Source: Rhodopirellula baltica SH 1
Lineage (GTDB): Bacteria > Planctomycetota > Planctomycetia > Pirellulales > Pirellulaceae
Reading direction: 5' to 3'
Length of the DNA stretch: 64,000 bases
NCBI RefSeq assembly: GCF_000196115.1
Contig: NC_005027.1
Coordinates: 6,568,001 to 6,632,000 of the forward strand
Positions 1,755-20,785 of this stretch are shown here, one piece after another. The notes beneath the pieces were generated by a model. That model was not told the DNA's origin and searched no databases. It saw only the letters and a program-made list of their open reading frames with translations. The translations under genes were made by a program, and so were the position numbers. The stretch's first letter is position 1; the number at the start of each line of letters is the position of its first letter.

Positions 1755-1760
1755 CAAGGT

Positions 1761-2567
1761 TTAGAACCGTCGAAGTTGAGAGATGTTTTGCATGACTTGA
1801 TCGCCCGCTTGGACCGCTTGGCTGTTCAGTTCGAATGCCCGCTGGGTCGTGATTAGGTCAATCAGTTCCTGGACCGGTTCGACGTTGGATGCTTCCAAGT
1901 TGCCTTGGCGAAGCACACCCATGCCGTCTGTTCCCGGATTGTTGATTTGCTCGGGACCGGATGCATCGGTTTCTGAGTACAGGTTTTCACCGTTTTTCAA
2001 CAATCCGTCGGGGTTGATGAATTGAGCGAGTTGGATTTGGCCTTGGTTGGTTAGTTCGGTTTGCCCTGGTTGTCGGACCATGACTTCGCCGTTGCTGTTG
2101 ATGACAACCGCGGTGGCATCCGGTGGGATGGTGATTGGTGGATCGAGCAATCGACCGACTTGCGCCGATCCCATGACCAACTCGCCGTTGGCGTTGATGT
2201 CCAGGTTGCCCGCTCGGGTGTACATCGTGTCTTGGCTTGACGGGTCAACGACGCGGAAATAGCCGCCGCCTTGGATGGCGACGTCCAAGTCTCGACCGGT
2301 TTGCTGCAGCGTTCCTTGTCGTTGATCGGTTTGGGTGCTGGTCACTCGAACGCCCAAGCCGACTTGAGTGCCGACGGCAGTGGGAGTTTGCGTTGAGTCT
2401 TGTACGCCGGGATAGACTTCGGTTCGATACAAAAGGTCTTCGAAGTTGGCGCGATCTTTTTTGAAACCAGTCGTGTTGATGTTGGCCAGGTTGTTGGCGA
2501 TCACGTCCAGTTTGGTCTGCATCGCCTCCATACCGGTGGCGGCGGTGTACAGCGTTTGAACACTCAT
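1761..2567 (-). CDS. flgG: Flagellar distal rod protein FlgG
   Basis: The product has 268 residues, the usual size for FlgG, which builds the distal rod of the flagellar basal body. The N-terminal rod signature is clear (LYTAATGMEAMQTKLDVIANNLANINTTGFK) when read in parts: residues 6-14 and 20-36. The C-terminal helix ends with ELNSQAVQAGDQVMQNI, typical of axial proteins. The ATG has an AAGGAAAA ribosome site just upstream. It lies 40 bp after flgF. Confidence 0.95.
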   Translation of the reverse strand: MSVQTLYTAATGMEAMQTKLDVIANNLANINTTGFKKDRANFEDLLYRTEVYPGVQDSTQTPTAVGTQVGLGVRVTSTQTDQRQGTLQQTGRDLDVAIQGGGYFRVVDPSSQDTMYTRAGNLDINANGELVMGSAQVGRLLDPPITIPPDATAVVINSNGEVMVRQPGQTELTNQGQIQLAQFINPDGLLKNGENLYSETDASGPEQINNPGTDGMGVLRQGNLEASNVEPVQELIDLITTQRAFELNSQAVQAGDQVMQNISQLRRF

Positions 2568-2607
2568 GCGAAATTTTCCTTGTGAGAGAGCGACGACTGC
2601 ATCGCGG

Positions 2608-3360
2608 TTAGCTCTGTAGGACGCGACCGATCAGGGAACCAAGAACACTGTCTTGGTTCTTGATCATTTGGATGTTGGCTTCGTAAGCACGAGATGTTTC
2701 AATCATCTCCATCATCGTGCCCGTTGGACTGACAGCGGATTGTTCCAACGAACCGGCAACCACGTTGCGGTCGCTGTCGGGGACCAAGCTGAACTCGGCC
2801 AAGGGTCTGAATAAGTTGCCGCCAACGTTGGCGAGGTCGCCGTAGCTGGCCGGTTGAGCAAGCATCAGTTGTTGGGTTTCGCCGGCCTGAGTGATCGTGC
2901 CTTCTGAGCCGACGGTGAACGGACGTCGCGGGTCGATTTGAATCGGCCGGCCGCCTTTTCCAAGCACCGGATCACCACCGGAATTGACCATCGTGCCGGT
3001 GGAATCGAACATGAAATCGCCGGCTCGGGTGAGCAGCTGTTCGTCACCGCGTTGCAGAACAAAGAAGCTCTTTTTGTCGTGCAATGCAAAGTCGGTTTCA
3101 CGACCGGTCGTCCGAATCGCTCCAACACCAAATTGAGTCTGTTCGGGCTGGATGGTCACGCCACCGCCGATATCGTCGGCACCACCGAGTCCGGGGGGAA
3201 CCATGCCTTCTTCGATCAGTTCCGAGAACCGAGCCTGTAAAATCGTTTGGCTGGGTTTGAAGCCCGGCGTATCGACGTTGGCAAGGTTGTGGCTGATCTG
3301 TTGCAGTCGGTGGTTTTGTGCCTGGGCACCCGCTGCTGACAAATAAACTCCGTAGGGCAT
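2608..3360 (-). CDS. flgF: Flagellar rod protein FlgF-like
   Basis: This is a 250-residue hook/basal-body rod protein of the FlgF/FlgG family. It has the N-terminal axial motif (ISHNLANVDTPGFKPSQ) and the C-terminal motif SRAYEANIQMIKNQDSVL. The frame stays open 23 codons further upstream, but those residues are charged and unlike the family, so the ATG at 3360 giving MPYGVYLSAAG is chosen. Position ahead of flgG fits FlgF, a proximal rod subunit. It is the first visible gene of the operon. Confidence 0.9.
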   Translation of the reverse strand: MPYGVYLSAAGAQAQNHRLQQISHNLANVDTPGFKPSQTILQARFSELIEEGMVPPGLGGADDIGGGVTIQPEQTQFGVGAIRTTGRETDFALHDKKSFFVLQRGDEQLLTRAGDFMFDSTGTMVNSGGDPVLGKGGRPIQIDPRRPFTVGSEGTITQAGETQQLMLAQPASYGDLANVGGNLFRPLAEFSLVPDSDRNVVAGSLEQSAVSPTGTMMEMIETSRAYEANIQMIKNQDSVLGSLIGRVLQS

Positions 3361-3798
3361 GGATCGCTCGCTTGGATCGCGTGACTCCGGTTCCGCCGAA
3401 CCGTTCGACGTTCCTTTGGGGGTACGCAATCGGAGGCACGAACCTCAAGGTCAATTCTTGAGCGAAAGTTTGTCGAATCTCGGAATTTGTTCCTGCGAGG
3501 ATGGCTTCCACGCCGGAATCGCTCTGAAAGCTCGAGTCAACCTGCCTCGATGAGACTCGCATTCCGCCTGACAAACGCAAGATTGACCGGACGATTTCGG
3601 TTGCACGCGAGGAACGTTGCGAAGCCTGAGGCACCGCGAATACAGCGATGCCGGGAACATCAGGAATGTTCCGTCGATAGAAATGTCCCGATGATGGTCG
3701 GTGGCCGTTCGATATCGGCAATCGCAATGACGGAGCGGTGACCATTGTCCGCTCCGTGCTTCACATCTGAGCCAATTTTGGTGCCGTTGCGAACCGTG
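3361..3798. other. Intergenic region upstream of the flagellar operon
   Basis: These 438 bp lie between the stop of the GGDEF gene and flgF. Open frames here are antisense or out-of-frame extensions with skewed composition. A promoter for flgF-flgG-flgA-flgH probably sits here. I looked for a sigma-54 type box (TGGCAC plus TTGC) on the minus strand and found no convincing match. Confidence 0.5.
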
Positions 3799-5556
3799 TT
3801 ATGCGGTTGCCATTTGATGCGACAACACCGGCATCTGGTTGTCTTGGCCGCTTTGACGAGCCGCCAATCCCGCGATTGCACAGACTTGTTTTAGCGACTT
3901 CTCATAGGCCGACATCGATTTCACTGAAGGAGCGATTTGCAGGATGCCGATCGACAGCCGTTCGCCTTCGTTTGCTTTCTCAGCAGCTGCCAGTGTCACA
4001 CCAATCGAACCTGCCGCACCGCAAATTTGGTGGGCTCGTTCCATCGCATCGTCTGCTTCCAGGTGAGGCATGCAGATCACCAACGTTGATTGATCGAGGC
4101 AACCGATGTGGTCTTGGTTTCGTGTGGCGGCACGGACCAATTGCAGCAAGGATCGCATGGTCGCTCCGCTGGGTTTGCCCGACAATCGAACGCTCATCAA
4201 TTGGTTGGATGCCTTGCCTCGATTGGGCGACGTTTGCATCTCTTCCACGTAGTCGACCATCGTCGCCATGTCCGGAAGATAGCTCAGTGCCTTGGGACGT
4301 TCACCGGCTGGTTCTTCCAACGTTTCTTGGATTTCTTCCACCACCTCGGGTGCAGCTTTGACTTCTTCGGTCACCACAGTTCGCGGCTCGGGAGCCTGTT
4401 CCAATTCGATCGATGAACGTGTGTCGCGAGCCAACTCTTCCACTTCCGTAGCCAATTCTTCTTCTTGGGCACGAGGTGCGATGGTCGGTTCTTCAATCAG
4501 ATTTGAACTGGATGAAATCGGTTTGATCGGCGTGACGACTTTCGAAGCAGCCTCGGCGGTTGGTTCTTCGGCCGAAGTTTCACTTGGTAGTTCGCCAGCT
4601 CGAACGAATCGTTGTTGATCGATGTAGTGGGCACAGTCGCGGCCGACTTCTTTGGATCGGTAGAGAGCTTCGTCGACTCGTTGCAGCCACTCTTGAGGCG
4701 ATTGTTGCGGCTCGAGTGCCCCGATGCCAACGCTGGCTTTGACCTTCAAGCATTTGCCTTCGAATCGAACTTCGCGTGTTCCGATGGCAACTCGAGTTTG
4801 TTCAATCAGTTCCACTGCCTCGGCCAAAGTCTTGTCGTGCAACAACATCACGAACTCTTCGCCACCGAAACGTGCGACCATCCCGTGCGGCTGCAAGCGA
4901 GCGTCCAGCAACTGCGAAACGACTCGCAAGACTTCATCACCAGCACGGTGACCATGGGTGTCGTTGAACTTCTTGAAGTGATCAACATCGAGAACAGCCA
5001 ACACGCCAGCACGAGTTGGACCGAGGGCATGACGACGAAGCAAATGCTCGTCGAATGCACCACGATTGAAAATTTGTGTCAGTGCATCGGTCTGAGCCTT
5101 TTGCTCGGCCGATTGAAGTTGTTGCGATTGCTCACGGATTTGAGCTTGAGCTTCGGCCAGTTGTGATCGCATGACTTCGTTGGCCGCGATCATTTGATCG
5201 ACGGCGTCCACAATCGCGGGCGGCGAATTGGACAAGTCGCTTTCGTGCAGCGTCGTGCTCAAGTTTTCGACGCGACTTTGGTGTGCATCGACATCGGCTG
5301 CGATGGATTGGGTGTATTGCCGAACGCGATCGGCAACTGCCATCACTTTTTCAGCATCTGGGGAATCTTCGATCGATTCAAGGCTTCCATCAGCCAACGA
5401 AACACCTTCCGACGATTGCGGAGGCGCCGACGACGTTGGGACCTTTTGCGATGGAGAGTCAGATACTTGCCCTTGGTTGTAAAGAGCATGCATCACCCAG
5501 CCACAAGTCATTCCGGCGCCACCGCTACTGGCTGCAATGATGATATCGAGAAGCAC
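3799..5556 (-). CDS. GGDEF-domain diguanylate cyclase
   Basis: The product has 585 residues. A short hydrophobic N-terminus is followed by an acidic linker and a coiled-coil stretch (about 90-165). A GGDEF domain (about 165-320) makes the second messenger c-di-GMP from two GTP. The active loop reads GGEEF at about 231-235, an active-type signature. The four residues where an inhibitory RxxD I-site would be are QPHG, so product inhibition through that site is unlikely. The long acidic tail and a C-terminal ~150-residue region are unassigned. The start is GTG; an ATG at codon 16 is possible. Being next to flagellar genes suggests control of motility, which is inference. Confidence 0.88.
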   Translation of the reverse strand: MLLDIIIAASSGGAGMTCGWVMHALYNQGQVSDSPSQKVPTSSAPPQSSEGVSLADGSLESIEDSPDAEKVMAVADRVRQYTQSIAADVDAHQSRVENLSTTLHESDLSNSPPAIVDAVDQMIAANEVMRSQLAEAQAQIREQSQQLQSAEQKAQTDALTQIFNRGAFDEHLLRRHALGPTRAGVLAVLDVDHFKKFNDTHGHRAGDEVLRVVSQLLDARLQPHGMVARFGGEEFVMLLHDKTLAEAVELIEQTRVAIGTREVRFEGKCLKVKASVGIGALEPQQSPQEWLQRVDEALYRSKEVGRDCAHYIDQQRFVRAGELPSETSAEEPTAEAASKVVTPIKPISSSSNLIEEPTIAPRAQEEELATEVEELARDTRSSIELEQAPEPRTVVTEEVKAAPEVVEEIQETLEEPAGERPKALSYLPDMATMVDYVEEMQTSPNRGKASNQLMSVRLSGKPSGATMRSLLQLVRAATRNQDHIGCLDQSTLVICMPHLEADDAMERAHQICGAAGSIGVTLAAAEKANEGERLSIGILQIAPSVKSMSAYEKSLKQVCAIAGLAARQSGQDNQMPVLSHQMATA

Positions 5557-10178: not shown

Positions 10179-10252
10179 GGGCGATTAGCTCAGTTGGTTA
10201 GAGCGCCACGTTGACATCGTGGAGGTCACAGATTCGAGTTCTGTATCGCCCA
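10179..10252 (+). tRNA. tRNA-Val (GAC)
   Basis: A 74-nt cloverleaf. The acceptor arms GGGCGAT and ATCGCCC pair fully and are followed by discriminator A. The D stem is GCTC/GAGC, the anticodon stem is CCACG/CGTGG with loop TTGACAT (anticodon GAC), and the T stem is ACAGA/TCTGT with TTCGAGT. No CCA is encoded. The 3' part, from 10208, is the left copy of the element's attachment repeat, so integration keeps the tRNA whole. The integrase gene ends inside this gene on the opposite strand. Confidence 0.96.
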
Positions 10253-11810
10253 CTCCCAAAAACCCCGCAATGCCTAGTGTTTTGTGGGGTTTTTTCGTGT
10301 TCGCATCGTTTTCAGCATCGTCGTCGGTTTGGTCAGAAAAGGACTCAGATTGACTATTTTTGCTGTCCTGGACTGAATTTGGTGCAAGCATTGGTGCAAG
10401 CTTTCGCGGCTTGGTTTCGTCGTCCGAATCCTCTGATTCGTTGGGAATAGCAGCCGAACGGAACATCGAGAGCGTCTCGATTGCTTCGGCTGTGTCGAGC
10501 AATCGTTCGTCGGTGTAGGTCCCCATCGTCAAGCGAATGTTGCTGTGCCGCATTGCGGCCTGTGCGATGCGAGGGGCAACGCCCGCTTTCGACAGGTGCG
10601 AGGCGAACGAATGTCGCAAGGCATGAACGTGAACCACGCAGCCGTCAGCGTCCTTCTTGGGGATGCCCGCCGCTTTCAAATCGCGGTCCATGATCCGCAG
10701 CAGGCCATCGGGAACAACGAACACTCGGTCGCCGGGTTGCTTGTCCGCAATCCACTCCCGCAGTTCCGTCACCAAATCAGACCGCAGCGGCAGCGTCGAA
10801 CCTTTGCGGCTTTTCTCGTTCGAATGTCGCAGCCGGATGAACCCCAAATCACCCAGCGACAAATCGCGGCATTCGAGTGTTCGCAGTTCATTCAGTCGCA
10901 AACCCGTCAGGACGGCGGTTTTGTAAATCAACGCCCTTTCGTTCCCCAACGCAATCAGCTTTGCCTTTCGTTCGTCGGGAACCTTTGCCAGTAGCTTGCC
11001 TTTGTTCGGTCCGCGGTACACCGTCATCGCATGTTCCAGCGGTCGGCGTCGCGCCGCGTCCAGCAGCCGCGTCAGTTCGGCGTCGGTCAACGCCCGTGCT
11101 CGTCGTCGTCGTTCCGATTCTTCGTCCAGCTTTGCCATTCCATCGAACGGATTGGTCAGCAGACGCTTTTCACCGTTGAAATGCGTCTGCTTTCCGTTGA
11201 CTCGTTTGCCGATGCACCAATTGCCGAATGCGAGCCAGGATTCACGATAGCCGTTGTAAACCGCGGCCCCCATCTTGCGTTCGCTGGTGCGTTGTTCGCC
11301 CAGCCAGCTTTCCAAGCGGTCGACCGACAAATCACGCAACGTTCTGAAATGGCAGGTTGCCGCGGTTTCGTTCAGCTTCGTGTCGTAGTGCTGGACGCGG
11401 TCGGGATGCGTTCCCTTGCGTCGTTGGTATTCCAAAAACGCCTCGATGTGGTCCGTGATCGGGACCGCAGCATGATCCGCGATGCGGTCCTGTTCAGGGG
11501 ACAGAATGTTCGACTTGACGTGTTCGGCTCGTTTCAGCAAATCGGACAACACAGCGTTTGCTGCGTCCTTCTGCCGACATCCCGTCGCAACTTCGCAAAC
11601 CATGCCTTCCCCGTCTCGGTACTTGGCCGTCCAGGTTGTCGCTTCGGCTTTGATGCGTTTGCCGTTTGCGGTCAGTTCCGCGGTTCGTTTCTTGCCGCGG
11701 CGGTCGGTCCATTGTGCGAATTGCTTGGATTCACCTTTCACCGTCCGAGCGATGATTTGTGCGCCGTCGGGAATTGGTTTCGTGTATTGCTTCTTGAAAA
11801 GCGTTGCCAT
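10185..11810 (-). CDS. Tyrosine site-specific integrase
   Basis: This recombinase integrates and excises the element at tRNA-Val. It has 541 residues: an N-terminal arm-binding-like region, a core-binding region (about 115-215) and a catalytic domain (about 240-445). Catalytic residues visible are R305 (TGLRLNEL), H396 and R399 (HALRH), H422 (RHSNI) and Y432 (GTYTDER). After 450 comes an acidic, probably disordered tail. From about residue 518 the frame runs through the attachment core, and the last seven residues (WRSNQLS) come from antisense of the tRNA-Val 5' half. In the excised circle the tail would be different and longer (see 19729-19946). The ATG overlaps the preceding gene's stop (TAATG). 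Confidence 0.95.
   Translation of the reverse strand: MATLFKKQYTKPIPDGAQIIARTVKGESKQFAQWTDRRGKKRTAELTANGKRIKAEATTWTAKYRDGEGMVCEVATGCRQKDAANAVLSDLLKRAEHVKSNILSPEQDRIADHAAVPITDHIEAFLEYQRRKGTHPDRVQHYDTKLNETAATCHFRTLRDLSVDRLESWLGEQRTSERKMGAAVYNGYRESWLAFGNWCIGKRVNGKQTHFNGEKRLLTNPFDGMAKLDEESERRRRARALTDAELTRLLDAARRRPLEHAMTVYRGPNKGKLLAKVPDERKAKLIALGNERALIYKTAVLTGLRLNELRTLECRDLSLGDLGFIRLRHSNEKSRKGSTLPLRSDLVTELREWIADKQPGDRVFVVPDGLLRIMDRDLKAAGIPKKDADGCVVHVHALRHSFASHLSKAGVAPRIAQAAMRHSNIRLTMGTYTDERLLDTAEAIETLSMFRSAAIPNESEDSDDETKPRKLAPMLAPNSVQDSKNSQSESFSDQTDDDAENDANTKKPHKTLGIAGFLGVGDTELESVTSTMSTWRSNQLS
10208..10259. repeat. Left attachment core (52-bp direct repeat)
   Basis: An exact 52-bp match to 19947-19998. 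It begins in the tRNA-Val anticodon stem, covers the anticodon loop through the 3' end, and continues 7 bp past the tRNA. This is the classic attachment site of a tyrosine integrase using the 3' half of a tRNA. The reading frame of the integrase passes through it on the minus strand. Confidence 0.93.
10258..10293 (+). terminator. Rho-independent terminator after tRNA-Val
   Basis: A stem of about 13 bp (AAAAACCCCGCAA with TTGTGGGGTTTTT, one G-T pair) closes a short loop and is followed by a T run at 10288-10293. It would end tRNA-Val transcription. It also lies within the integrase C-terminal coding sequence. The diverged copy at 20000-20036 keeps the pairing by compensating changes. Confidence 0.8.
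10376..10401. promoter_or_regulatory. Putative integrase arm-type sites, inside int
   Basis: The 11-mer TTGGTGCAAGC occurs twice with a 12-bp period (10379-10389 and 10391-10401), 120 bp from the attachment core. The same 26 bp recurs exactly at 19864-19889, on the other side of the core in the circular form. Tandem short repeats on both sides of attP are how arm-type integrase sites usually look. Here they encode APMLAP in the integrase tail. No binding has been shown. Confidence 0.5.
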
Positions 11811-12160
11811 TAAGAATTCCCTCCCATTGACGCTCGATCGAGCTCGCTGCGAGCTTGTTTGGCTTCCAAGACGGAGCTCAAAAGTTCGTTTGCAAGCTCA
11901 ATCGCTTCGTCTAAGGAAACAGTAATCTTTCCGGAATGCTTTTTTTCAGAGCTGGTAACTTGATCCCATGTCAGACAGATTCGTATTTGATCGTGCTTAG
12001 CACTTCCCTTGCTTGGATTGCGTCTGGTTCCTCCGCTCATCGCAGGTAGCACAGTTATGTGACCACACTGCTCTTCTAGTGATTTTCCAAAAAATTCGTA
12101 ATCGGCCGGCTCTTCTCTGCAAATCACAAACATGCCGAAGACTTCGTTTCTCACTGTCAT
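11810..12160 (-). CDS. Hypothetical protein upstream of integrase
   Basis: The product has 116 residues and no family I recognise. It has no signal peptide or membrane segment. Its stop overlaps the integrase ATG by one base (TAATG), so the two are probably translated together and it may modulate recombination; that is inference. The frame also permits a TTG one codon before the ATG. Base composition is more AT-rich than the integrase. Confidence 0.6.
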   Translation of the reverse strand: MTVRNEVFGMFVICREEPADYEFFGKSLEEQCGHITVLPAMSGGTRRNPSKGSAKHDQIRICLTWDQVTSSEKKHSGKITVSLDEAIELANELLSSVLEAKQARSELDRASMGGNS

Positions 12161-12224
12161 CAAATGGCCCAGTTAATTTGATTATTGTTTCGTGATGTGG
12201 TAGCGATGTTTGAAAGCATGGCTT

Positions 12225-12875
12225 TCAGTCAGCAAGATTGCGTTGTCGCTTTATTGCCACCAGCTCGTTTACCTCTTGGTCGCTCCTACTAGTCTCTTCT
12301 TCGATGATTTTCACGACTTCAGGTTGCCGGTCGACGCTACAGTCAATCAGCATCGTGGCTGTGTAAAATGCGTCGATTTTGCTTCGTAGTGCGTCGCCCC
12401 CCTCACCTCTTGCAAGGACTTTGATTCCAACCGCTTTCAATTGCTTTTCAATCCGGTTTAATTCACCGGAGCGAACGGTGTCGTCAATCGCGTATGGGTT
12501 GTTGTTGTAGTAGAGGAGGCAGTCGACTTGCACGATGTGCCAAATTCCTCGACGACTGGAAAAATTGTTCTCGAAGGCGTCCTGTGCGTACCGGTCTGCC
12601 AGTGATTTGGCTTGCTTCTTGTTCATCTTGGTTCTCTTTTCAGTTGATTTTGCTGGCCTGCCTTTCTCAGGAGGCCGCGGAATAAGTGAAACATCGGTGG
12701 TTACGGAGACGCCCAGCACCTTCGCTAGGCGATCCAGCTTTTCCATCGTCAGGCTTCCGTCATTCATGAACCTGGACATCGCCGACTGGTTGATGCCAGC
12801 AGCTTTCGCAATGGCGGACGGCGATGTCTGCGACTGTTGAACAATTTCGCGGACTTGTTGGCTCAGAGGTTTCAT
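12225..12875 (-). CDS. XRE-family transcriptional regulator
   Basis: The product has 216 residues. Residues 1-60 form a helix-turn-helix of the XRE/Cro type (SPSAIAKAAGINQSAMSRFM, then LTMEKLDRLAKVLGVSV). A basic linker (about 68-88) leads to a C-terminal domain (about 90-216) that I cannot assign. It may be the element's repressor. Only 55 bp separate it from the small gene upstream, and an operator could lie there. Confidence 0.85.
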   Translation of the reverse strand: MKPLSQQVREIVQQSQTSPSAIAKAAGINQSAMSRFMNDGSLTMEKLDRLAKVLGVSVTTDVSLIPRPPEKGRPAKSTEKRTKMNKKQAKSLADRYAQDAFENNFSSRRGIWHIVQVDCLLYYNNNPYAIDDTVRSGELNRIEKQLKAVGIKVLARGEGGDALRSKIDAFYTATMLIDCSVDRQPEVVKIIEEETSRSDQEVNELVAIKRQRNLAD

Positions 12876-12930
12876 GGGTCAATCAACATTGCATCGGTAA
12901 AGGTATGCGTCAAGTGAAAAGCAATCCGTT

Positions 12931-13158
12931 TTAGAATATGCTTTTTTGTGCCGTTCGTCGATAGCCGACAAACCCGCCGCATCTCGAACACGTCGTCCGG
13001 ATCCACCCGTGCCGCGAACCGTCCTTCGAATCAATCCACGCAGAGCGGTCAGCGTGATTGCATCGCCGCTTGCGTTCGTCGGTGTCTCGTTGGAATTGCA
13101 TCGTCGCTGGTTGCATCCAGAGCGATTGCAAATCGGTGGTGGTGGGTGCGTTCGTCAT
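12931..13158 (-). CDS. Small zinc-finger-like protein
   Basis: The product has 75 residues with a Cys/His cluster (CNHADRSAWID, then TTCSRCGGFVGYRR) that could bind one zinc ion. Similar C-terminal tails occur in mobile-element proteins of planctomycetes, from memory. The frame is open to 13212, but MTNAPTTTDLQ at 13158 is the likelier start. The 48-bp tandem repeat lies just upstream and may carry its promoter or an origin. Confidence 0.6.
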   Translation of the reverse strand: MTNAPTTTDLQSLWMQPATMQFQRDTDERKRRCNHADRSAWIDSKDGSRHGWIRTTCSRCGGFVGYRRTAQKSIF

Positions 13159-13239
13159 CGTGTCCGCCGTTCGTTGTTGGTTTGCCCCTGTCCAGCGGAC
13201 CAAAAGGGGCAAACCCTTATGGTCCCTTTATGGGATAGA

Positions 13240-13331
13240 GGACATAGCTGTGTCCGCTTGTTTTGACCCGCAGCGTCCGGTTAATGCGGACATAGCTGTG
13301 ACCGCAGCAACCGACCCGCAGCGTCCGGTTA
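13240..13331. repeat. 48-bp tandem repeat, two units, iteron-like
   Basis: Two units with exactly 48-bp period. Each holds GGACATAGCTGTG(T/A)CCGC (13240-13257 and 13288-13305), itself partly palindromic, and 19 identical bases beginning GACCCGCAGCGTCC (13265-13283 and 13313-13331). The second unit ends on the stop codon of the upstream wHTH gene. Position beside primase and helicase genes suggests iterons of a replication origin or regulator sites; this is inference. Confidence 0.75.
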
Positions 13332-13661
13332 GGGAAGTGACTCGAACCGAGCCTGTGACATCGGAAACACTCGATAGGACGATGGTCCCGAGCGAATCCC
13401 GCCGCGATGAACAACCAGCAGCAGCCCGATATCGCTCAGCCGTTTGATGGAACGACGAACGGTTCGTTCGCTGATTCCTGCTCGCTTGGCGATGTCGGTC
13501 TGACCTGTCTTGGCGACTCCGTTTCGGGTGTCGCGATACAGCACCATCCAAACCGCCAAATCAGGCCGCGTCAGTTCACGCAGTGAGAAGTCGACGAACG
13601 CATTCAACACCGCGAAGCGGTCAGCCGTTTGTCGCTTCGGCTTGCGTTGCTTCCGTGTCAT
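13329..13661 (-). CDS. Winged-helix DNA-binding protein
   Basis: The product has 110 residues. A basic N-terminus is followed by a winged helix (about 30-100; TDIAKRAGISERTVRRSIKRLSDIG read as the recognition region at 55-79). It resembles replication-initiator or plasmid-control wHTH domains. Its ATG overlaps the helicase stop (ATGA, 13658-13661) and its stop codon lies in the 48-bp repeat, so it may bind that repeat (inference). Confidence 0.72.
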   Translation of the reverse strand: MTRKQRKPKRQTADRFAVLNAFVDFSLRELTRPDLAVWMVLYRDTRNGVAKTGQTDIAKRAGISERTVRRSIKRLSDIGLLLVVHRGGIRSGPSSYRVFPMSQARFESLP

Positions 13662-14578
13662 TGGTCACCCCACAATCCTGCGATGGAATCACGCAGTCGT
13701 TGGTGTTCTTCTGACATCGGCGGCTCGGTCAGTTCGAACCGTTGCCGTGTTCGGTCGAACGTCAGTTCGATGTCGGTCGGCTTGCCGTAGCGTGATTTCA
13801 GTTGACGTAGTTCAACGTCCACCACGCCATCGTCTGCGTCATCGTCCGAGTTCTTCGCGGGAACAATCAAATAGGCATCGTCCGCGCCGTATTCGAGTTC
13901 GGATGACTCCCGAAACGATGCCAGCGACAAACCGTCGCCCGAGTAGCTGGAACGTCCTTTGGCATCCTTCGAACGCCCCACCGCAGACAACGCAATGACG
14001 CAGCACCCCGCATTGGCAAACCGACGAATCGAATCCATCGTCGCATCGACCGACCCTCGTTTGTCGTCATGCTTGCCGACAGGCCGAATCCGTTGGATGT
14101 AGTCCAACACGATCAAATCCGCGTCGATGGAATCCGCAGCGTCCGCCACGTTTTCGAGCGACATCGGCGAACGAACAAACACCAAACGGTCCGCGATGTC
14201 GTCCAGCGTGTCGAATGCATCCGACAAGCGTTCGCGCTGTCGGTCGTTCAACGTCCGGTCCTGAATGTCAGTCAATGAAACATCGCTCAGGCGGCTCAGT
14301 TGACGTTCTAACAGCCGTTCCGGTGGCATCTCGACATTCGCCACGCAAACCCGCAACGAATCGTCAGCAGACATCGCCGTGACCACGGACTGCATGACGA
14401 ATGCCGTCTTTCCCATCCCAGGCGAACCGCCCAGCAATGCGACCATCCCAGGACCGAATCGGATGTGGTCCAACCCCTCGCCGATGTGGAATCGCCGCGG
14501 CGGTTTGCCGTGCAAGACATCATCGTGCCAGTCATCGAACAATCGGTCGCACCGGACAAATGGTTGTTGCCCCGTCAT
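13658..14578 (-). CDS. DnaB-like replicative helicase (RecA fold)
   Basis: The product has 306 residues. Walker A is GGSPGMGKT (50-58) and Walker B is DLIVLDYIQ (154-162), followed by IRPVGK, in the manner of the DnaB C-terminal ATPase domain. The N-terminal primase-interaction domain of DnaB is missing, so this is a short form as seen in small replicons and satellites. It probably unwinds DNA at the element's origin with the primase encoded just upstream (ATGA overlap at 14575-14578). Confidence 0.88.
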   Translation of the reverse strand: MTGQQPFVRCDRLFDDWHDDVLHGKPPRRFHIGEGLDHIRFGPGMVALLGGSPGMGKTAFVMQSVVTAMSADDSLRVCVANVEMPPERLLERQLSRLSDVSLTDIQDRTLNDRQRERLSDAFDTLDDIADRLVFVRSPMSLENVADAADSIDADLIVLDYIQRIRPVGKHDDKRGSVDATMDSIRRFANAGCCVIALSAVGRSKDAKGRSSYSGDGLSLASFRESSELEYGADDAYLIVPAKNSDDDADDGVVDVELRQLKSRYGKPTDIELTFDRTRQRFELTEPPMSEEHQRLRDSIAGLWGDQ

Positions 14579-15543
14579 ACCGCACCGCCTTTCGACAATG
14601 CGTTGTCGATTGCACGACGAACATCGGTTGGCGTCAGCCCGCTATCCAATGCCGCCTCGGTCAACAACGCATGAGCCAATCGCGATGGACAACCGAATTC
14701 GCCAAGATTGGCCGCGGCGGAATACAGCAACCGATGCCGGTCGCCTTGCTCCGCGCCGTCTTGGATGAATTCCAACGTCGAGCGGTTCAGTTCCGAACGG
14801 TCCGCCGCGATGACTTTCACCGCTTCGGCTTTGCGTTTCATCGCTGCGACCGCGGCGTGCCAGTCGTCAACCGCTCGTTGGTCGATGCCCGGTTCAGTTG
14901 GCAAATCGAATTCCAGCGGCTCAGCCGATGCCGTCACGATGGAGCTCGGTTTGCGATGCATCAATTCGTCGAATGTCAGGATGCGTTTGTGACGCCCTGT
15001 CTTGCCGTGTCGGCTGTTCGGTGCCCGAAGCGGTTGAACCTTGCCGTAGACGGACGGGTCAATGACGACACGAACCGAAGCGGTCAAACCTTCCGCCAAC
15101 TTCCGAACAACCGAGCCGAATTCGATGGACGGTTCCACATCGAACAACGATGTCGGCAAACCAATGTGGAACCCTTTGGATCCCGAGAAGAACAGCAACA
15201 GTTCGGATTCGTCGATGCGATAGCGTTCGACCAGCATCATCGCCAGTCGCCGCGCATCCTGTGTTGCCGAATCAATGTCGCCTTCGCGGTCGATGTCGAA
15301 CCAAATGAACCGCGACCAGCATCGGCCATCAAAACCGCGGACATCCAAGGTTCCCGCCGCGTCAATGCGACGGGTCAAAAATTCGTTGTCGTATTGGAAA
15401 GGCGATAGGAACCCTTCCGAATCAATTTGTGCCAGGTCATCGCAGGCCGCGTAGGCCGCGAACGCTCGGTCGTACTGGACGACTTTGCGTTCGAGGCTAC
15501 ACGGTCCGACAATGCGATACCCGAATGGCATCGCAGCGTTCAC
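14575..15543 (-). CDS. Archaeo-eukaryotic-type (AEP) DNA primase
   Basis: The product has 322 residues and resembles the AEP primase fold. Acidic metal-binding motif FDID is at 82-85, SGSKGFHIGLP at 120-130, and a basic motif (D162, then PLRAPNSRHGKTG at 171-183). It would make primers for element replication. The first codon is GTG in a TAGTG overlap with the DUF669 stop; an ATG at codon 5 is the alternative. It is coupled to the helicase downstream. Confidence 0.82.
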   Translation of the reverse strand: MNAAMPFGYRIVGPCSLERKVVQYDRAFAAYAACDDLAQIDSEGFLSPFQYDNEFLTRRIDAAGTLDVRGFDGRCWSRFIWFDIDREGDIDSATQDARRLAMMLVERYRIDESELLLFFSGSKGFHIGLPTSLFDVEPSIEFGSVVRKLAEGLTASVRVVIDPSVYGKVQPLRAPNSRHGKTGRHKRILTFDELMHRKPSSIVTASAEPLEFDLPTEPGIDQRAVDDWHAAVAAMKRKAEAVKVIAADRSELNRSTLEFIQDGAEQGDRHRLLYSAAANLGEFGCPSRLAHALLTEAALDSGLTPTDVRRAIDNALSKGGAV

Positions 15544-16118
15544 TATGCCGACTCCCTTTCGCTTTGGTCGTCGTCATCGTTCGCGGCATCGTCGAACAAA
15601 TCATTCACCGTCGTGCCGCCATCGTCACCGTTCCCCGAATCACCCGCCGCGGCGGTCATCGGCTCGGAATTCGGCGCGAATGCGTCCGGTGTCGGTTGAA
15701 TCACTTCCATGACATCGAACCGCCGCACCCGGTTGGATTCGTTGCCGTCGTCATCGCGGCGGATGCTCAGTTTGACGTTGCAACGGAACACCGCCGGCAA
15801 CGGTCGTTCCAATTGTTGCAAGTCCGAGACGCCCAGCTTTTCTAAATCGCGTTTAGTGCGAGACATCGCCGCTTCGGTGAACCAGCATTCATGCCAGAAC
15901 CGTGAACCAGCGTGGTCCCCTTCCGCGACTTCGAACGTCAGTCGATAACCTGGGGTCCCTTTCGTTCTCGATTCGATTGCATCGCCTTTCACGATGTCCG
16001 CGATGTACTCGCCTTTCGGCAAGCAATCAAAGTCCCCCGCCGCGGCGGTCGAATCCCAGGCCGATTTAATCGTGTCGAGCGAACCCTGTTCGCGTAGAAT
16101 GTCAGACAGTTTGCCCAT
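15543..16118 (-). CDS. DUF669-like single-strand DNA-binding protein
   Basis: The product has 191 residues. The N-terminal two thirds resemble phage DUF669 proteins, which are thought to bind single-stranded DNA during replication (FDCLPKGEYIADIVKG; GYRLTFEVAEGDHAGSRFWH). The last ~40 residues are a very acidic tail ending DDDDQSERESA, as in SSB proteins whose acidic tails recruit partners. It overlaps the upstream gene by 17 bp and the primase by one base. Confidence 0.75.
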   Translation of the reverse strand: MGKLSDILREQGSLDTIKSAWDSTAAAGDFDCLPKGEYIADIVKGDAIESRTKGTPGYRLTFEVAEGDHAGSRFWHECWFTEAAMSRTKRDLEKLGVSDLQQLERPLPAVFRCNVKLSIRRDDDGNESNRVRRFDVMEVIQPTPDAFAPNSEPMTAAAGDSGNGDDGGTTVNDLFDDAANDDDDQSERESA

Positions 16119-16572
16119 TGCTTGTTTCCCCTTGCTTTGTGGTTGACGTTTTCGATGCCGGTTCAGCCGTTGCCGCGGTTGAATCGGTTTTTTGATGGAA
16201 TGAGAGCGACCGACGCAGCCGCTTCACTTTCAGAATGACCGCTTGGCGGTCGACAATTTCCCAGGTCCAAACCGAACCGCCTTTTCGCGATTTGCGGTCG
16301 CTGCGTTTGGCACCACACTGTCGAATCAATCCATCGCGGGACAATTCGCTGATCTTCGGTCCGAGCCACTTGCCGTCGCCGTCGTAGCGTTTGTTCCGGT
16401 CCCGAACGATGTCGTCGGTGGTGGCTTGGCCGCTTCGGCTTTTCAGCAGCACCGTCAGTAGCGCCAACTGTGCGGCGCGGTTGCGGTCGGCAATGCTCCG
16501 CATCTCAAAGGGGGAGCCAACAAAGAGAGAGCAAACCGACACTCCCGCATCAAATAGTTCTTGCTGAATCAT
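16102..16572 (-). CDS. Winged-helix-like protein of the replication operon
   Basis: The product has 156 residues and no clear family. The middle (about 30-115) looks like a winged helix (ALLTVLLKSRSGQATTDDI; KISELSRDGLIRQCG) followed by a basic patch. The C-terminal ~35 residues are low complexity. The start at 16572 (MIQQELF) forms an ATGA overlap with the excisionase-like gene; the frame is open 13 codons further. It could be a regulator of the operon. Confidence 0.6.
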   Translation of the reverse strand: MIQQELFDAGVSVCSLFVGSPFEMRSIADRNRAAQLALLTVLLKSRSGQATTDDIVRDRNKRYDGDGKWLGPKISELSRDGLIRQCGAKRSDRKSRKGGSVWTWEIVDRQAVILKVKRLRRSLSFHQKTDSTAATAEPASKTSTTKQGETSNGQTV

Positions 16573-16817
16573 GACCGTCGCCCCCTCGATGCAGAACCGA
16601 GATTGGGGCAACCTGCATTCAACCAGTGGTCAAAGTCAGCTCGAAGAATGCGGACCAATGACCCGAGCCGAATGGGGCGCGGAAGTTTTCCGCGGTCAAT
16701 CAACCTTCGGACGTGTCGGGATGAACAACCGAGTTCATTCGCGACATCGTCGACCGACATCATCGCCCGTCGCTTGCCGTCCTGGATGGCGGAAGCGACC
16801 GTTTGAGAAGTGTTCAC
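16569..16817 (-). CDS. Excisionase-like HTH protein
   Basis: The product has 82 residues with a MerR/AlpA-type helix-turn-helix (SVDDVANELGCSSRHVRRLI; then GKLPRPIRLGSLVRI and FDHWLNAGCP), about residues 20-75. Such proteins are excisionases or, like AlpA, activators of element excision. The GTG start has AAGG seven bases upstream. It is the first gene of the overlapping six-gene operon that runs to 13329, directly below a cluster of palindromes. Confidence 0.78.
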   Translation of the reverse strand: MNTSQTVASAIQDGKRRAMMSVDDVANELGCSSRHVRRLIDRGKLPRPIRLGSLVRILRADFDHWLNAGCPNLGSASRGRRS

Positions 16818-16857
16818 GTCTTACCTTTTGAAATGCGTGATTCTGTTCCATTCGTGT

Positions 16858-16952
16858 CCAAGGAACGTCCTTGGTGAACAGCAGAATCATGCCGTGTCCA
16901 AAAGCTTTGTGAAGCTTCTCACAGCATCTCACACGCCGATGTGAGACGCTGT
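16858..16952. promoter_or_regulatory. Palindrome cluster upstream of the replication operon
   Basis: Three dyads lie in the 175-bp gap before the excisionase-like gene. The first is CCAAGGA/TCCTTGG with a 3-bp spacer (16858-16874). The second is a pair of AAGCTT motifs around TGTG near 16902. The third is a 13-bp arm pair, ACAGCATCTCACA and TGTGAGACGCTGT, around CGCCGA (16921-16952, 12 of 13 matching). There is no T run, so these are more like operators or origin elements than terminators. Confidence 0.6.
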
Positions 16953-16992
16953 TTGAAAATCGGTTTCGTTATATTGATAGAATTCGTTCTGC

Positions 16993-18291
16993 TTACTTCG
17001 AATTAAATTTCGAGAAAAAATCTTTCAAACTCTTGTTGTGAGATGCAGTGAGATAGAACCATTGTTCATTGATAAGCTTGAAAACGATTTCCGTTGAGCT
17101 TTTCGGCTTGTACCATCCCCGCTCATCTACCAGCATCTCCCCGAATAATTCGCCTTTCTTTTGATTGCCGCTTCTTAGTCGCCACGCTTTATTGGAGATG
17201 TCAAGGCCGTCCGCAGACTCGCTATCTTTGGCCCAGTCGCCTGGTCCGTAGTTGGATATAGCTTCGTCGTACTGCTGTATTCTCGGGACCTCTGTTTCCG
17301 GCGACTTTTGAACGCTTGTGGTGTTGTTTTCGCCAATTTGGTCAGCTGGGGCGGTTGGCTTTGAGAGCAGCGGCGTTGCTGTCGTGGGACTAATGAATTG
17401 CCAGTTCTTCGCAAAACGAATCCACCGTCTCAGTATTTGCGTAGCGTCTGCTGATCTTTTCTTTCGCGAATCAATGACAGTCCCATCTGCAAAACGTTTA
17501 TAGAGAATTCCCTCAGATCCAGATGGGCTCGATAGGCCGTGGGCGTAGCTCGGTTCAGTCCATTCGAAGAACAGTAGGTATGTTGCGTCTTTGGCCCACC
17601 GTTCAGCCGCCGGTTTGCTAGATGCCAACTGACCAGACCAGAATTCTTCTGTGTTGTCATCTCTAACAAATTCGACAATCGAGAATGCGGGGCTTTCACC
17701 CCAGTTGAGCATTCGCTGTAACTCCGTGAGACGTTTTGCAAGTTGTCCAAGGCCTTTTGTCCAATCTTCAGTCTCGCACTCGTCTATTCGCTCAATCATC
17801 TCAGTAGCGACCACAACAAACTGTTGAACCAATGGGTCTGATGATGTAGGTGGTGCAGTTTGCTGGTCTTGCGGCTCACTGTTCGCGTTTGCATCGAGTT
17901 GTGACGCAATGTCGCGAAGTTTTCTGTCGTTGAACGCACTTATGGGAATGCCAAGCCGCTTGCATTCCCTCGCCCGCCATTGGGTCAAATTGCCGGAAGT
18001 GATTTGCTTCCCATCTGCTTCGAGTTCGAGTTGAATGCGATCAACGTACGGCCATGAGAGGTAGTCGCCTCGCAGCTTGCTAGCTATTTGTGATTCGTGG
18101 ATTGCCCGTCGAGTCGCGTTTTCTGCAAAGCCGCGTCGGGTAGGCGTATCGGGATTTCGCTCTGCTTGTTCATATGCGGCCCTTGCCCGGTCCTCTCCTG
18201 CTTCGACTACTTTCGTTGCGAGCAGTAGGTCGGCGAAGGTGCGTTGTTCAAAGGGGACATCATGGCAGTTGTGAACGACTTCAAGACTCAT
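16993..18291 (-). CDS. Uncharacterised element cargo protein
   Basis: The product has about 432 residues from the ATG at 18291 (MSLEVVHNCHDV); the frame is open to 18411, but those residues look non-coding. It is soluble, with no signal or membrane segment. The first half is helical and charged (EAGEDRARAAYEQAER). The second half holds aromatic-rich stretches (YLLFFEWTEPSYAHG; FKLINEQWFYLTASHN). The gene is noticeably more AT-rich than the replication operon, fitting foreign cargo. I recognise no family. Confidence 0.65.
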   Translation of the reverse strand: MSLEVVHNCHDVPFEQRTFADLLLATKVVEAGEDRARAAYEQAERNPDTPTRRGFAENATRRAIHESQIASKLRGDYLSWPYVDRIQLELEADGKQITSGNLTQWRARECKRLGIPISAFNDRKLRDIASQLDANANSEPQDQQTAPPTSSDPLVQQFVVVATEMIERIDECETEDWTKGLGQLAKRLTELQRMLNWGESPAFSIVEFVRDDNTEEFWSGQLASSKPAAERWAKDATYLLFFEWTEPSYAHGLSSPSGSEGILYKRFADGTVIDSRKKRSADATQILRRWIRFAKNWQFISPTTATPLLSKPTAPADQIGENNTTSVQKSPETEVPRIQQYDEAISNYGPGDWAKDSESADGLDISNKAWRLRSGNQKKGELFGEMLVDERGWYKPKSSTEIVFKLINEQWFYLTASHNKSLKDFFSKFNSK

Positions 18292-18511
18292 TCTCGGTTT
18301 TCCTATCCGTTTGCCAGGCTGGTTCAACCGTGCCACGGGATAGGAATCGTGACATCGGCTGAACCAACAGCGGACGCTATCCGCTTGCCTGTCGATGAAT
18401 CGCGGGACCAACCGCGACTTCGCGTTGTTGGGTGGTTAGTCCAACAGGCGAGATTTTGGCGTGTTTAGTGGGTTTGGCAATCCTTGTTTTACCCGTCGTC
18501 GGCGCAGTCAG

Positions 18512-19027
18512 TCACAACGGTGTCACCCAATCGGGATGGATCGGGGCTGGCACCACGACTTGATGCTTGTCGCTGGTTGGGTTCACTAACGCCGGAGCCA
18601 CAAATAAGTCCTTCCAAAGATCAGCGGGTGCTGGGTATTTGGATCGAAAGAGACTTTTCTGCTGTTCTTCGTGCTCTTCCAGGTCAACTCCCAGCTCTAT
18701 CGCTTGATGTTGCCATTCCACCAATGTCGAACGGGGGAATGTTGGATTTCCGATAATGTGGCACCAAACTGCACTGTCGAGCACAGCGAAAATTGCGTTC
18801 ACAGGGAGGGTGATTTTGTACCCCAGTTCGTCCTGGTTTTTCTGTGTGGCAATGCGGTCATCTGGGTTGGTGTAGCACCAAATCACCTGCTGCATCCCCA
18901 GTTCGTGGCAGAGCTGTTGGACTGCCGGAATGTATGCTTGGTTGCCAATCTGATACTTCGATAGGGACAAGTTCACATTGTCCTTGCTGATATCGAATCC
19001 ATTCGACTGCCAGGTCCAAAGTTCCAT
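18512..19027 (-). CDS. Uncharacterised cargo protein, possibly DUF3841-like
   Basis: The product has 171 residues. It opens MELWTWQSNGF and contains QQVIWCYTNPDDR and LDSAVWCHIIGNP. The spacing of these Trp-rich motifs loosely recalls DUF3841, a family of unknown role, but I could not test this. There is no signal peptide. Composition is lower in GC than the element core. It lies 220 bp upstream of the larger cargo gene and could be in the same transcript. Confidence 0.58.
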   Translation of the reverse strand: MELWTWQSNGFDISKDNVNLSLSKYQIGNQAYIPAVQQLCHELGMQQVIWCYTNPDDRIATQKNQDELGYKITLPVNAIFAVLDSAVWCHIIGNPTFPRSTLVEWQHQAIELGVDLEEHEEQQKSLFRSKYPAPADLWKDLFVAPALVNPTSDKHQVVVPAPIHPDWVTPL

Positions 19028-19728
19028 AGTTTGCTCAGTTGTGAGTCGTTGGAAAAATCATTTTGCTGCATGCTCAGCGTAATTTGGGCAACGATCGGTC
19101 GCCGGGAAACCAGCGTCAGAAAACAGCGGCCCCCCCCTGCATCCGATTGGTCGCTGAAACCTTGCATTTTGCCATGAAACGCGCACGCCTATGGAAGCGG
19201 CAGACGAACAGCATCGGCCGTAGTTTTCGTCCACCCCGCCCCACTAGGACCGGAACAGCGAAGGGAAGTCAGTTTTCAGGTTTTGTGATTAGAGAATGCT
19301 TGCGGACAAGCTACCCGCGGCGCAAATGCGTTCGGAAGGACCCGCGACCGCGCATCGACCCCCTGACCCCCGTAAACATCGACCGGACGGACTGTGTTCA
19401 ACGGTCCCTGGGCTGAATTCTACCGCAATCGAATCGATACGCTCAGAGGGACCCAATGACGGCAGGGGGTGGTGGTGGTGCCTGTTTGCTCCGTGGCTGT
19501 GCGAGAATTCAGCAGCACAGCGGTCGATGCCTTCACAATTCATCCAGGGAAGGACCCGCAGCGGTGTCTGTCCAATCTGTTCCGCATCGCGGCGGTTCCC
19601 TTTGGCATCGCCGTGTCGGCTTGCACAAGTAGTACCTATGCCCTTTGGGTCCTTCCCAGCGTTCGTGGCTCAGCACCGCGATTCAGCAGCCCAGAGTGTC
19701 GAGAGAGAGTTCGTACGTTCCGCCTGTT
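19028..19728. other. Gene-poor right part of the element
   Basis: About 700 bp, GC-rich, with open frames in several phases but no protein-like signature. The 10-mer GGAAGGACCC occurs directly at 19334 and 19548, and inverted at 19647-19656. This could be regulatory or structural DNA, decayed genes, or an unrecognised RNA. Confidence 0.35.
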
Positions 19729-19946
19729 TCATTGCCCCCGTTTGGCGACCGCTTCGGTTTGTTCATTCAGCACCGTCAGCAACCGTTCGACCGCATCCGG
19801 ACCCAACGCACTAGCCACGGCATCGACCAACACCGAAGCGACCGAACGATCGTCGCACTTTTCAATTTGGTGCAAGCATTGGTGCAAGCGTTCCGCATCG
19901 CCGCGTTTCGCTATGGTTTTTTGGGGTTTCTTCGCAACGTGCTCGG
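19729..19946 (-). other. Displaced integrase C-terminal tail (circular form)
   Basis: Reading on the minus strand from the right attachment core, the integrase frame continues without a stop for 72 codons, from SEHVAKKPQK to TEAVAKRGQ, and ends at TGA 19729-19731. The peptide is protein-like, with an amphipathic helix pattern (SVASVLVDAVASALGPDAVE). In the excised circle the integrase gene at 11810-10208 would join it directly, giving about 606 residues. In the integrated state it is separated from the integrase by the whole element. Confidence 0.6.
19864..19889. promoter_or_regulatory. Putative integrase arm-type sites, right arm
   Basis: An exact 26-bp copy of 10376-10401, holding TTGGTGCAAGC twice (19867-19877 and 19879-19889), 57 bp from the right attachment core. 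It is read in a different coding frame (LHQCLHQ instead of LAPMLAP), so selection appears to act on the DNA rather than on the protein. Confidence 0.5.
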
Positions 19947-19998
19947 ACGTTGACATCGTGGAGGTCACAGATTCGAGTTCTGTATCGCCCACTCCCAA
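19947..19998. repeat. Right attachment core (52-bp direct repeat)
   Basis: Exact copy of 10208-10259, holding the 3' part of tRNA-Val from the anticodon stem onward. Only this fragment is present, so no second functional tRNA is made. To its right lies a diverged copy of the integrase tail, not host sequence of another kind. Confidence 0.93.
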
Positions 19999-19999
19999 G

Positions 20000-20036
20000 A
20001 ACCCCGTTAAAACTAGTGTTTTGCGGGGTTTTTTCG
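20000..20036 (+). terminator. Terminator hairpin, diverged copy
   Basis: The stem is AACCCCG with CGGGGTT, plus an inner AAAAC/GTTTT pair around TAGT, followed by TTTTTT. Compared with the copy at 10258-10293 several paired positions differ on both sides, so base pairing has been kept. Confidence 0.7.
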
Positions 20037-20256
20037 TGTCCGCGTCGTTTTCAGCGTCGTCGTCGGTTTGGTCAGAAAGGGACTCAGAAGGACTCAAATT
20101 GCTTTCCTGGACTGAATTGGGTGCAACCGTTGGTGCAACCGCTGAGCCGCGGGACATCGAAGGCGTCTTGTTCGTTGGTTGTGAAATTGTCGTCGGATTT
20201 GGAAGAGGCCGAGTACGCGAACGGCTTTGATGACGCGGCGGGGTGTGATTGCTGTA

Positions 20257-20345
20257 GCCGTCACTGGTCCTGTGACGGCCTGACTGCTCGGGCGTTTCGG
20301 TCGGGGGCTTGGTGTTGGGAACCGACGCTAACGCGTGGCGGCCGA
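20257..20345. repeat. Dispersed hairpin repeat, copy 1
   Basis: It contains GCCGTCAC and GTGACGGC around a 7-nt loop (20257-20279), then ACCGACGCTAACGCGTGGCG (20321-20340). The same two parts recur at 21811-21952 and 22561-22722. They are probably non-coding, REP-like elements of this genome. Confidence 0.7.
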
Positions 20346-20365
20346 GGGGGCGGGATGCCCTTTGG

Positions 20366-20785
20366 TTACGCTTCAGAACGGTCGACAGGGTCCGCCGTAT
20401 TCGAAACCGATTGAGGTGCGAAGGCGAGACGGAACACGGCGGGGTTGCGAAGTCCGAGGGCGACCCAAACAACGATCCCAACGATGATTGGGATGAAGAA
20501 TGGTTCCTCCATTCGAACATGTGTTGCCGTTGCACCGCCCAAGTAGGCCGCCAACAAGATGGCTCCGATGAACGATGTTCGTGGTATCAAAAACAGGACT
20601 GTGACGGTCACTTCGACGATGCCGATCCAGAACATCACGTCTTCGCTCCATCCCATCTTGGCAAACATTTCGGATTTGCCTTCCCAGCTAGTGAGCTTCC
20701 CTGAAGCACTTGCTCCGATCAGCATCAGGGCCAGGAGGCCGCTCAAGATCCAGCCGGCGATTGTCAACTTTTTGTTCGAGTTCAT
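20366..20785 (-). CDS. DoxX-like membrane protein
   Basis: The product has 139 residues and four predicted membrane helices (about 10-30, 50-70, 73-93 and 100-118), matching the DoxX-like family of small integral membrane proteins. Role unknown; relatives are linked to redox or stress responses. The start at 20785 (MNSNKKLTI) is preferred over one seven codons upstream. It lies 54 bp downstream of the DUF1579 gene and is probably co-transcribed with it. Confidence 0.78.
   Translation of the reverse strand: MNSNKKLTIAGWILSGLLALMLIGASASGKLTSWEGKSEMFAKMGWSEDVMFWIGIVEVTVTVLFLIPRTSFIGAILLAAYLGGATATHVRMEEPFFIPIIVGIVVWVALGLRNPAVFRLAFAPQSVSNTADPVDRSEA

Follow-up and report, generated by a model that had tools for sequence, protein, structure and literature searches.

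The window, a stretch of 64,000 nucleotides from Rhodopirellula baltica SH 1, is part of a 7,145,576-bp single-contig genome and contains a 9.7-kb putative mobile element inserted at a tRNA-Val(gac) gene (Table 1). The element lies between two copies of a 52-bp core, the left one overlapping the 3' part of the tRNA gene, and encodes an integrase, a DUF669 protein, proteins probably involved in replication, regulation and excision, and several proteins of unassigned function. None of ten element proteins compared with PHROGs matched a structural phage family, and the element therefore looks plasmid- or satellite-like.

Table 1. Features of the element at tRNA-Val (window coordinates)
Feature	Coordinates	Strand	Basis
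tRNA-Val(gac), integration target	10179..10253	+	ARAGORN
Tyrosine integrase, inserted form, 541 aa, end in tRNA antisense	10185..11810	-	PF00589 E 4.5e-18; 14-relative alignment
Left core, 52 bp, common to tRNA and integrase antisense	10208..10259	.	exact match to 19947-19998
Terminator-like hairpin just 3' of tRNA, in integrase linker antisense	10258..10294	+	-18.7 kcal/mol, z -5.0
P arm-type repeat, in integrase linker	10376..10401	.	26-nt exact repeat with 19864-19889; arm role inferred
HTH regulator, repressor-like	12225..12875	-	domain and PHROGs matches
DnaB-like helicase	13658..14578	-	PF03796 E 2.2e-25
Primase-like protein	14575..15543	-	PF01896 E 1.3e-8
Excisionase-like HTH protein, 82 aa	16569..16817	-	TIGR01764 E 1.3e-11; phrog_66
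Integrase tail, 72 codons + stop, joined to integrase in circle only	19729..19946	-	junction reading, relatives, frame test
P' arm-type repeat, inside tail	19864..19889	.	26-nt exact repeat with 10376-10401; arm role inferred
Right core, 52 bp	19947..19998	.	exact match to 10208-10259
Related integrase C-terminus remnant, chromosomal side	19999..20138	-	repeat homology; 72% over residues 465-535

The integrase is a tyrosine recombinase by its PF00589 match. The inserted gene retains the catalytic domain (residues 293-435), and R305, K333, H396, R399, H422 and Y432, which we take to be the catalytic residues, are invariant in 14 aligned relatives. The reading frame terminates in STMSTWRSNQLS within the tRNA-Val antisense; the open reading frame and the exact core match confirm the original prediction that this frame runs through the 52-bp core and takes its WRSNQLS end from the antisense of the tRNA. 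When the ends of the element are joined at the core, the predicted circle junction is in frame and free of stops, giving a single open frame of 606 aa, of which 534 residues run through the core and 72 come from the right end (stop codon at 19729-19731). The arithmetic of the prediction thus holds: an offset of 9739 between the cores, 72 further codons, a stop at 19729 and an integrase of about 606 residues.

Beyond the core, repeat homology extends to 192 nt at 89%, because the 140-nt integrase C-terminus remnant adjoins the right core on its chromosomal side. A 268-aa open reading frame (19729-20535) already unites this remnant, the core and the tail. Separate expression of the tail as a protein at attR is not favoured, because in L062, L063 and L086 the open frame ahead of the core comprises a mere 16-17 residues, those coded by the core included. 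The tRNA-Val site is a hotspot: similar sequence lies past the right core in L061 and L067, and at L163 (G152) and L167 (G153) integrase C-terminus remnants directly adjoin the tRNA. Such remnants are perhaps retained for supplying the tRNA 3' end and terminator. Elsewhere in the R. baltica genome, four places (L003-L006) match the integrase with identical scores at 33% identity, each with one in-frame TAA, and represent a repeated integrase-like gene.

The tail recurs in relatives. A single-sequence search with its 72 residues found it in 17 of 241 family genomes (E <= 0.01, own genome counted), and a profile of 16 tails found it in 27 of 241, some of these matches being weak. In 10 of the 17 tail genomes (own counted), an integrase match lies 4-17 kb downstream on the same contig and strand, as would be expected of a tail left at the distal end of an inserted element; a broken integrase lies near the tail in an eleventh genome, G152. 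Second cores were located by direct repeats; L079 lacks a tRNA call, and its longest repeat was chosen by hand. Of the 17 elements with two located ends, 16 have a predicted junction in frame; their tails measure 60-77 aa, and five tRNA species are involved. Ten of the 15 in-frame relatives (L061-L069, L079) were selected because the tail had already been found there; the five picked by integrase alone (L081, L086, L087, L089, L094) are in frame in 5/5 cases. A difference between the integrase encoded by the circle and that of the inserted copy is well supported at the sequence level, by the in-frame 606-aa junction and by the tailed relatives.

The in-frame set includes a 92,217-bp element in G006 (L081 and L137) that has the same type of integrase and tail at its ends as the 9.7-kb element of the window. 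The one junction that is out of frame in its present sequence belongs to an element of about 70 kb in G170 (L085, L131; both ends found), whose far end was reached from a tail match. Its A-run length is unequal between the ends, the core copies differ further, and the integrase frame stops before the tRNA; it may be a decaying element or represent a reading of another kind. No second core was found for L077, L082, L084, L088 and L096 in the DNA stretches examined, nor for L073, L075, L083, L091, L092 and L095 on the available contig stretch. In L078 and L093 no stop occurs before the stretch ends, and 6 of the 36 loci read have no integrase.

Among the integrases with an adjacent tRNA, 24 of 26 stop inside its antisense, one stops just past it and one before it, and three further integrases have no adjacent tRNA call. 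Targets at the located junctions are tRNA-Val(gac), tRNA-Pro(cgg) and tRNA-Pro(ggg), in two frames each, tRNA-Ala(ggc) and tRNA-Gly(ccc). On a 15-row integrase tree the eight (tRNA, frame) labels require 9 changes by parsimony, with the tail in frame in 15/15 rows; shuffled labels require 10.2 changes on average, and 28 of 200 shuffles are as low as 9. In the window the tRNA-Val core is translated as GDTELESVTSTMST, whereas L065 reads it as GRYRTRICDLHDVN, and a related in-frame tail follows each. We take this reading of the same core in two frames, with a related tail each time, as the strongest sign of a selected frame.

The 26-nt repeat pair on both sides of the core resembles integrase arm-type sites, and its copies are read in different frames, the linker copy giving LAPMLAP and the tail copy LHQCLHQ. 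Linker and tail have a common exact repeat of 11-30 nt in 16/16 elements, and in 11 of the 16 it is at least 19 nt long and spans two units. P arm and core are 112-129 bp apart in 14 of 16 elements (61 and 147 bp in the other two), and core and P' arm are separated by 51-74 bp in the 16. The repeat varies between lineages and agrees within each element, as would be expected of arm-type sites read by the integrase. These paired arm-type repeats in linker and tail indicate that attP is situated inside the integrase gene. Although a pattern scan for terminators found none near tRNA-Val, folding gives a strong hairpin there; it lies inside the integrase linker, and the element therefore supplies the tRNA 3' end and a likely terminator together.

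Natural variants of the arrangement were also found. G013 encodes a 582-aa integrase that is uninterrupted through linker, P arm, core, P' arm and tail, and its tail scores 20 bits, around the arm region, against a tail profile built without G013. The gene starts about 250 bp from a contig end, and no tRNA was found in two scanned stretches of the contig. G013 is not claimed as a circle, since no exact overlap of its contig ends was found. L071 (G216) and L070 (G158) have a tRNA at one side and a core and tail at the other, and a profile search of these stretches found no integrase of this family. These may be int-less derivatives mobilised in trans. By eye, L071 carries type I restriction-modification-like genes.

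Searches of other collections returned partial or shorter relatives. Two phage records and 13 plasmid records have partial integrase matches, none of which reaches a coverage of 80%. A single-sequence search of IMG/VR found no integrase relatives; a profile search found six, and three of these (L158-L160) stop shortly past the catalytic domain and lack linker and tail. At the phylum level, a profile search of 392 genomes gave a strong match in 25, own genome counted. The integrase frame overlaps antisense tRNA, as read at the integrase end, in 11 of 29 extra-family loci (L183, L184, L185, L187, L194, L195, L201, L203, L204, L205 and L207). At L185 (G269, 1372-4197), the integrase is part of a 942-codon open frame that crosses antisense tRNA-Pro and continues into a downstream protein, NadC-like by eye.

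Ordinary tRNA-targeting integrases have attP beside the integrase gene, which is whole in both states; the present element resembles them in the restored tRNA 3' half, the core repeat at the far end and the arm-like repeats. The phage Mx8 targets tRNA-Asp, and all but the last 30 residues of its integrase are needed for integration. In this Myxococcus phage, attP lies within the integrase coding sequence and integration gives the gene, now recombinant, a new 3' end, a principle termed a molecular switch (PMC6070905). Tojo et al. 1996, by its title in the references of that paper, supports the arrangement, and Mx9 is described as similar in principle. Mx8 and SSV integrases are named in the Islander paper (PMC4383910) as extending across attP. 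The SSV-type 'suicidal' integrases of archaea have the recombination site inside the gene, which integration alters and splits into two parts regarded as inactive, separating the catalytic domain from the N-terminal portion (PMC8371274). The account of self-disrupting recombinases in that paper states that they are exclusive to archaea and does not mention Mx8, which suggests that bacterial cases are little known. Among the papers found by searches on planctomycete or Rhodopirellula integrases, titles and abstract openings contain no description of such an arrangement in planctomycetes.

In the window, the attP core lies within the integrase reading frame, as in both the Mx8-type swap and the SSV-type. 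The predicted outcome of integration is that of Mx8, in that the C-terminus is exchanged in frame, the gene receives a new 3' end and the catalytic domain is retained. Unlike in the SSV-type, the C-terminal tail alone is exchanged and the catalytic domain keeps its N-terminus. The system differs from Mx8 in that the alignment with its Int, which spans 135 residues, scores a weak 26 bits (E 0.003 in a one-to-one comparison), the tails show no convincing resemblance (4 bits), and a whole family with many tRNA targets and a common tail occurs here, in elements ranging from small and non-phage-like to 92 kb. No match to Mx8 was obtained at 1e-5 in a phage collection that includes the Mx8 record. 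Close sequence kinship with Mx8 Int, and thus membership by descent, was not found; such kinship, or that of the two tails, was dropped because of the weak scores. By these comparisons, the system is best described as Mx8-like, with an integrase family that has no close sequence similarity to Mx8 Int. Systems of this kind are already known from Mx8 and Mx9.

The 606-aa frame might in principle have arisen by chance, since base shuffles of single tails remain open in 2-9% of cases, and in about 4% for a 72-codon frame. Over the 16 junctions, however, the tail frame has no stops, whereas the two alternative forward frames contain 45 and 35 at the same lengths; the tail frame is open for at least 59 codons in 16/16, and each alternative in 1/16. 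By mean pairwise similarity the coding frame ranks first (76 versus 53 and 52), but with a value of 73 in one reverse frame this measure by itself does not decide. Together with the homologous tails in other genomes, the three-frame test makes a chance frame exceedingly improbable, and this explanation was rejected. The tail could instead be a real part of the circle integrase whose loss has no regulatory effect, attP overlapping the gene for compactness and P' arm DNA being read as largely dispensable protein. Its sequence is loose, with a mean column identity of 33% and no invariant columns in the tail alignment; the best-kept motif is encoded by the arm repeat; and in the closest pair, the window and G161, constraint after the arm is not visible (dN 0.118, dS 0.103). 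In 6 of 7 pairs the tail also shows a higher rate of change than the catalytic domain. A largely dispensable tail fits poorly, however, with a frame that was held across the 9 target or frame changes, with the steady tail length, and with the codon-position pattern after the arm site, where three independent pairs pooled have 30, 14 and 50 differences at positions 1, 2 and 3 (p = 3e-5) and two pairs have dN < dS (0.31 versus 0.85 and 0.27 versus 0.93). An AlphaFold2 model from two sequences also predicts three helices (15-31, 36-48 and 50-70; mean pLDDT 78, pTM 0.53). A Foldseek search with the tail model gave no PDB match at E <= 0.001 (36 at E <= 10), the best PDB sequence match had an E of 0.34, and no NCBIfam family matched the tail. 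On this evidence, a tail lost without regulatory effect is unlikely.

Insertion might also inactivate the enzyme outright, with exit depending on help from another copy or on decay. The remnants and the int-less, att-flanked derivatives at these sites would agree with this, but the inserted gene keeps the whole catalytic domain and its presumed catalytic residues, and the element carries an excisionase-like gene. The SSV-type of archaea provides a precedent for inactivation (PMC8371274); in Mx8, however, the swapped enzyme is not inactivated (PMC6070905). Outright inactivation is therefore improbable for the family described here.

The core, the frame, the tail, its conservation and the paired repeats can all be read directly from the DNA. 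We consider it probable that the locus holds a 9.7-kb element with attP in the 3' part of the integrase gene, that the circle encodes 606 aa and the inserted form 541 aa, and that loss of the tail shifts the activity of the enzyme. By analogy with Mx8, it is plausible that the tail swap sets insertion against excision. The circle gene would comprise the catalytic domain, a linker containing the P arms, the tRNA-derived core and a helical tail of about 70 aa containing the P' arms. Crossover at the core would sever the tail, which would remain at the element's distal end, and the inserted gene would close with codons from the tRNA antisense. The long form would carry out integration between attP and attB and would require the tail, which perhaps helps build the attP complex. 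The tail-less form would be altered or weakened, thereby steadying the inserted state; excision would be performed by this form together with the excisionase-like protein of the element, and would restore the long form.

A broader reading, which we put forward tentatively, is that an integrase family throughout the Pirellulaceae, and perhaps in more of the Planctomycetota, stores its integration state in the C-terminus, a dedicated helical domain being attached to the enzyme in the circular state only and physically removed by insertion. The frame would then be re-set at each new tRNA, and the switch itself, not a by-product of a compact attP, would be the object of selection. The family combines a common tail with several tRNA targets and occurs naturally in inserted, int-less and uninterrupted forms, which makes it testable whether the change of C-terminus sets the direction of recombination. 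These observations also suggest that integrases annotated with tRNA-antisense ends may be missing their true C-terminus.
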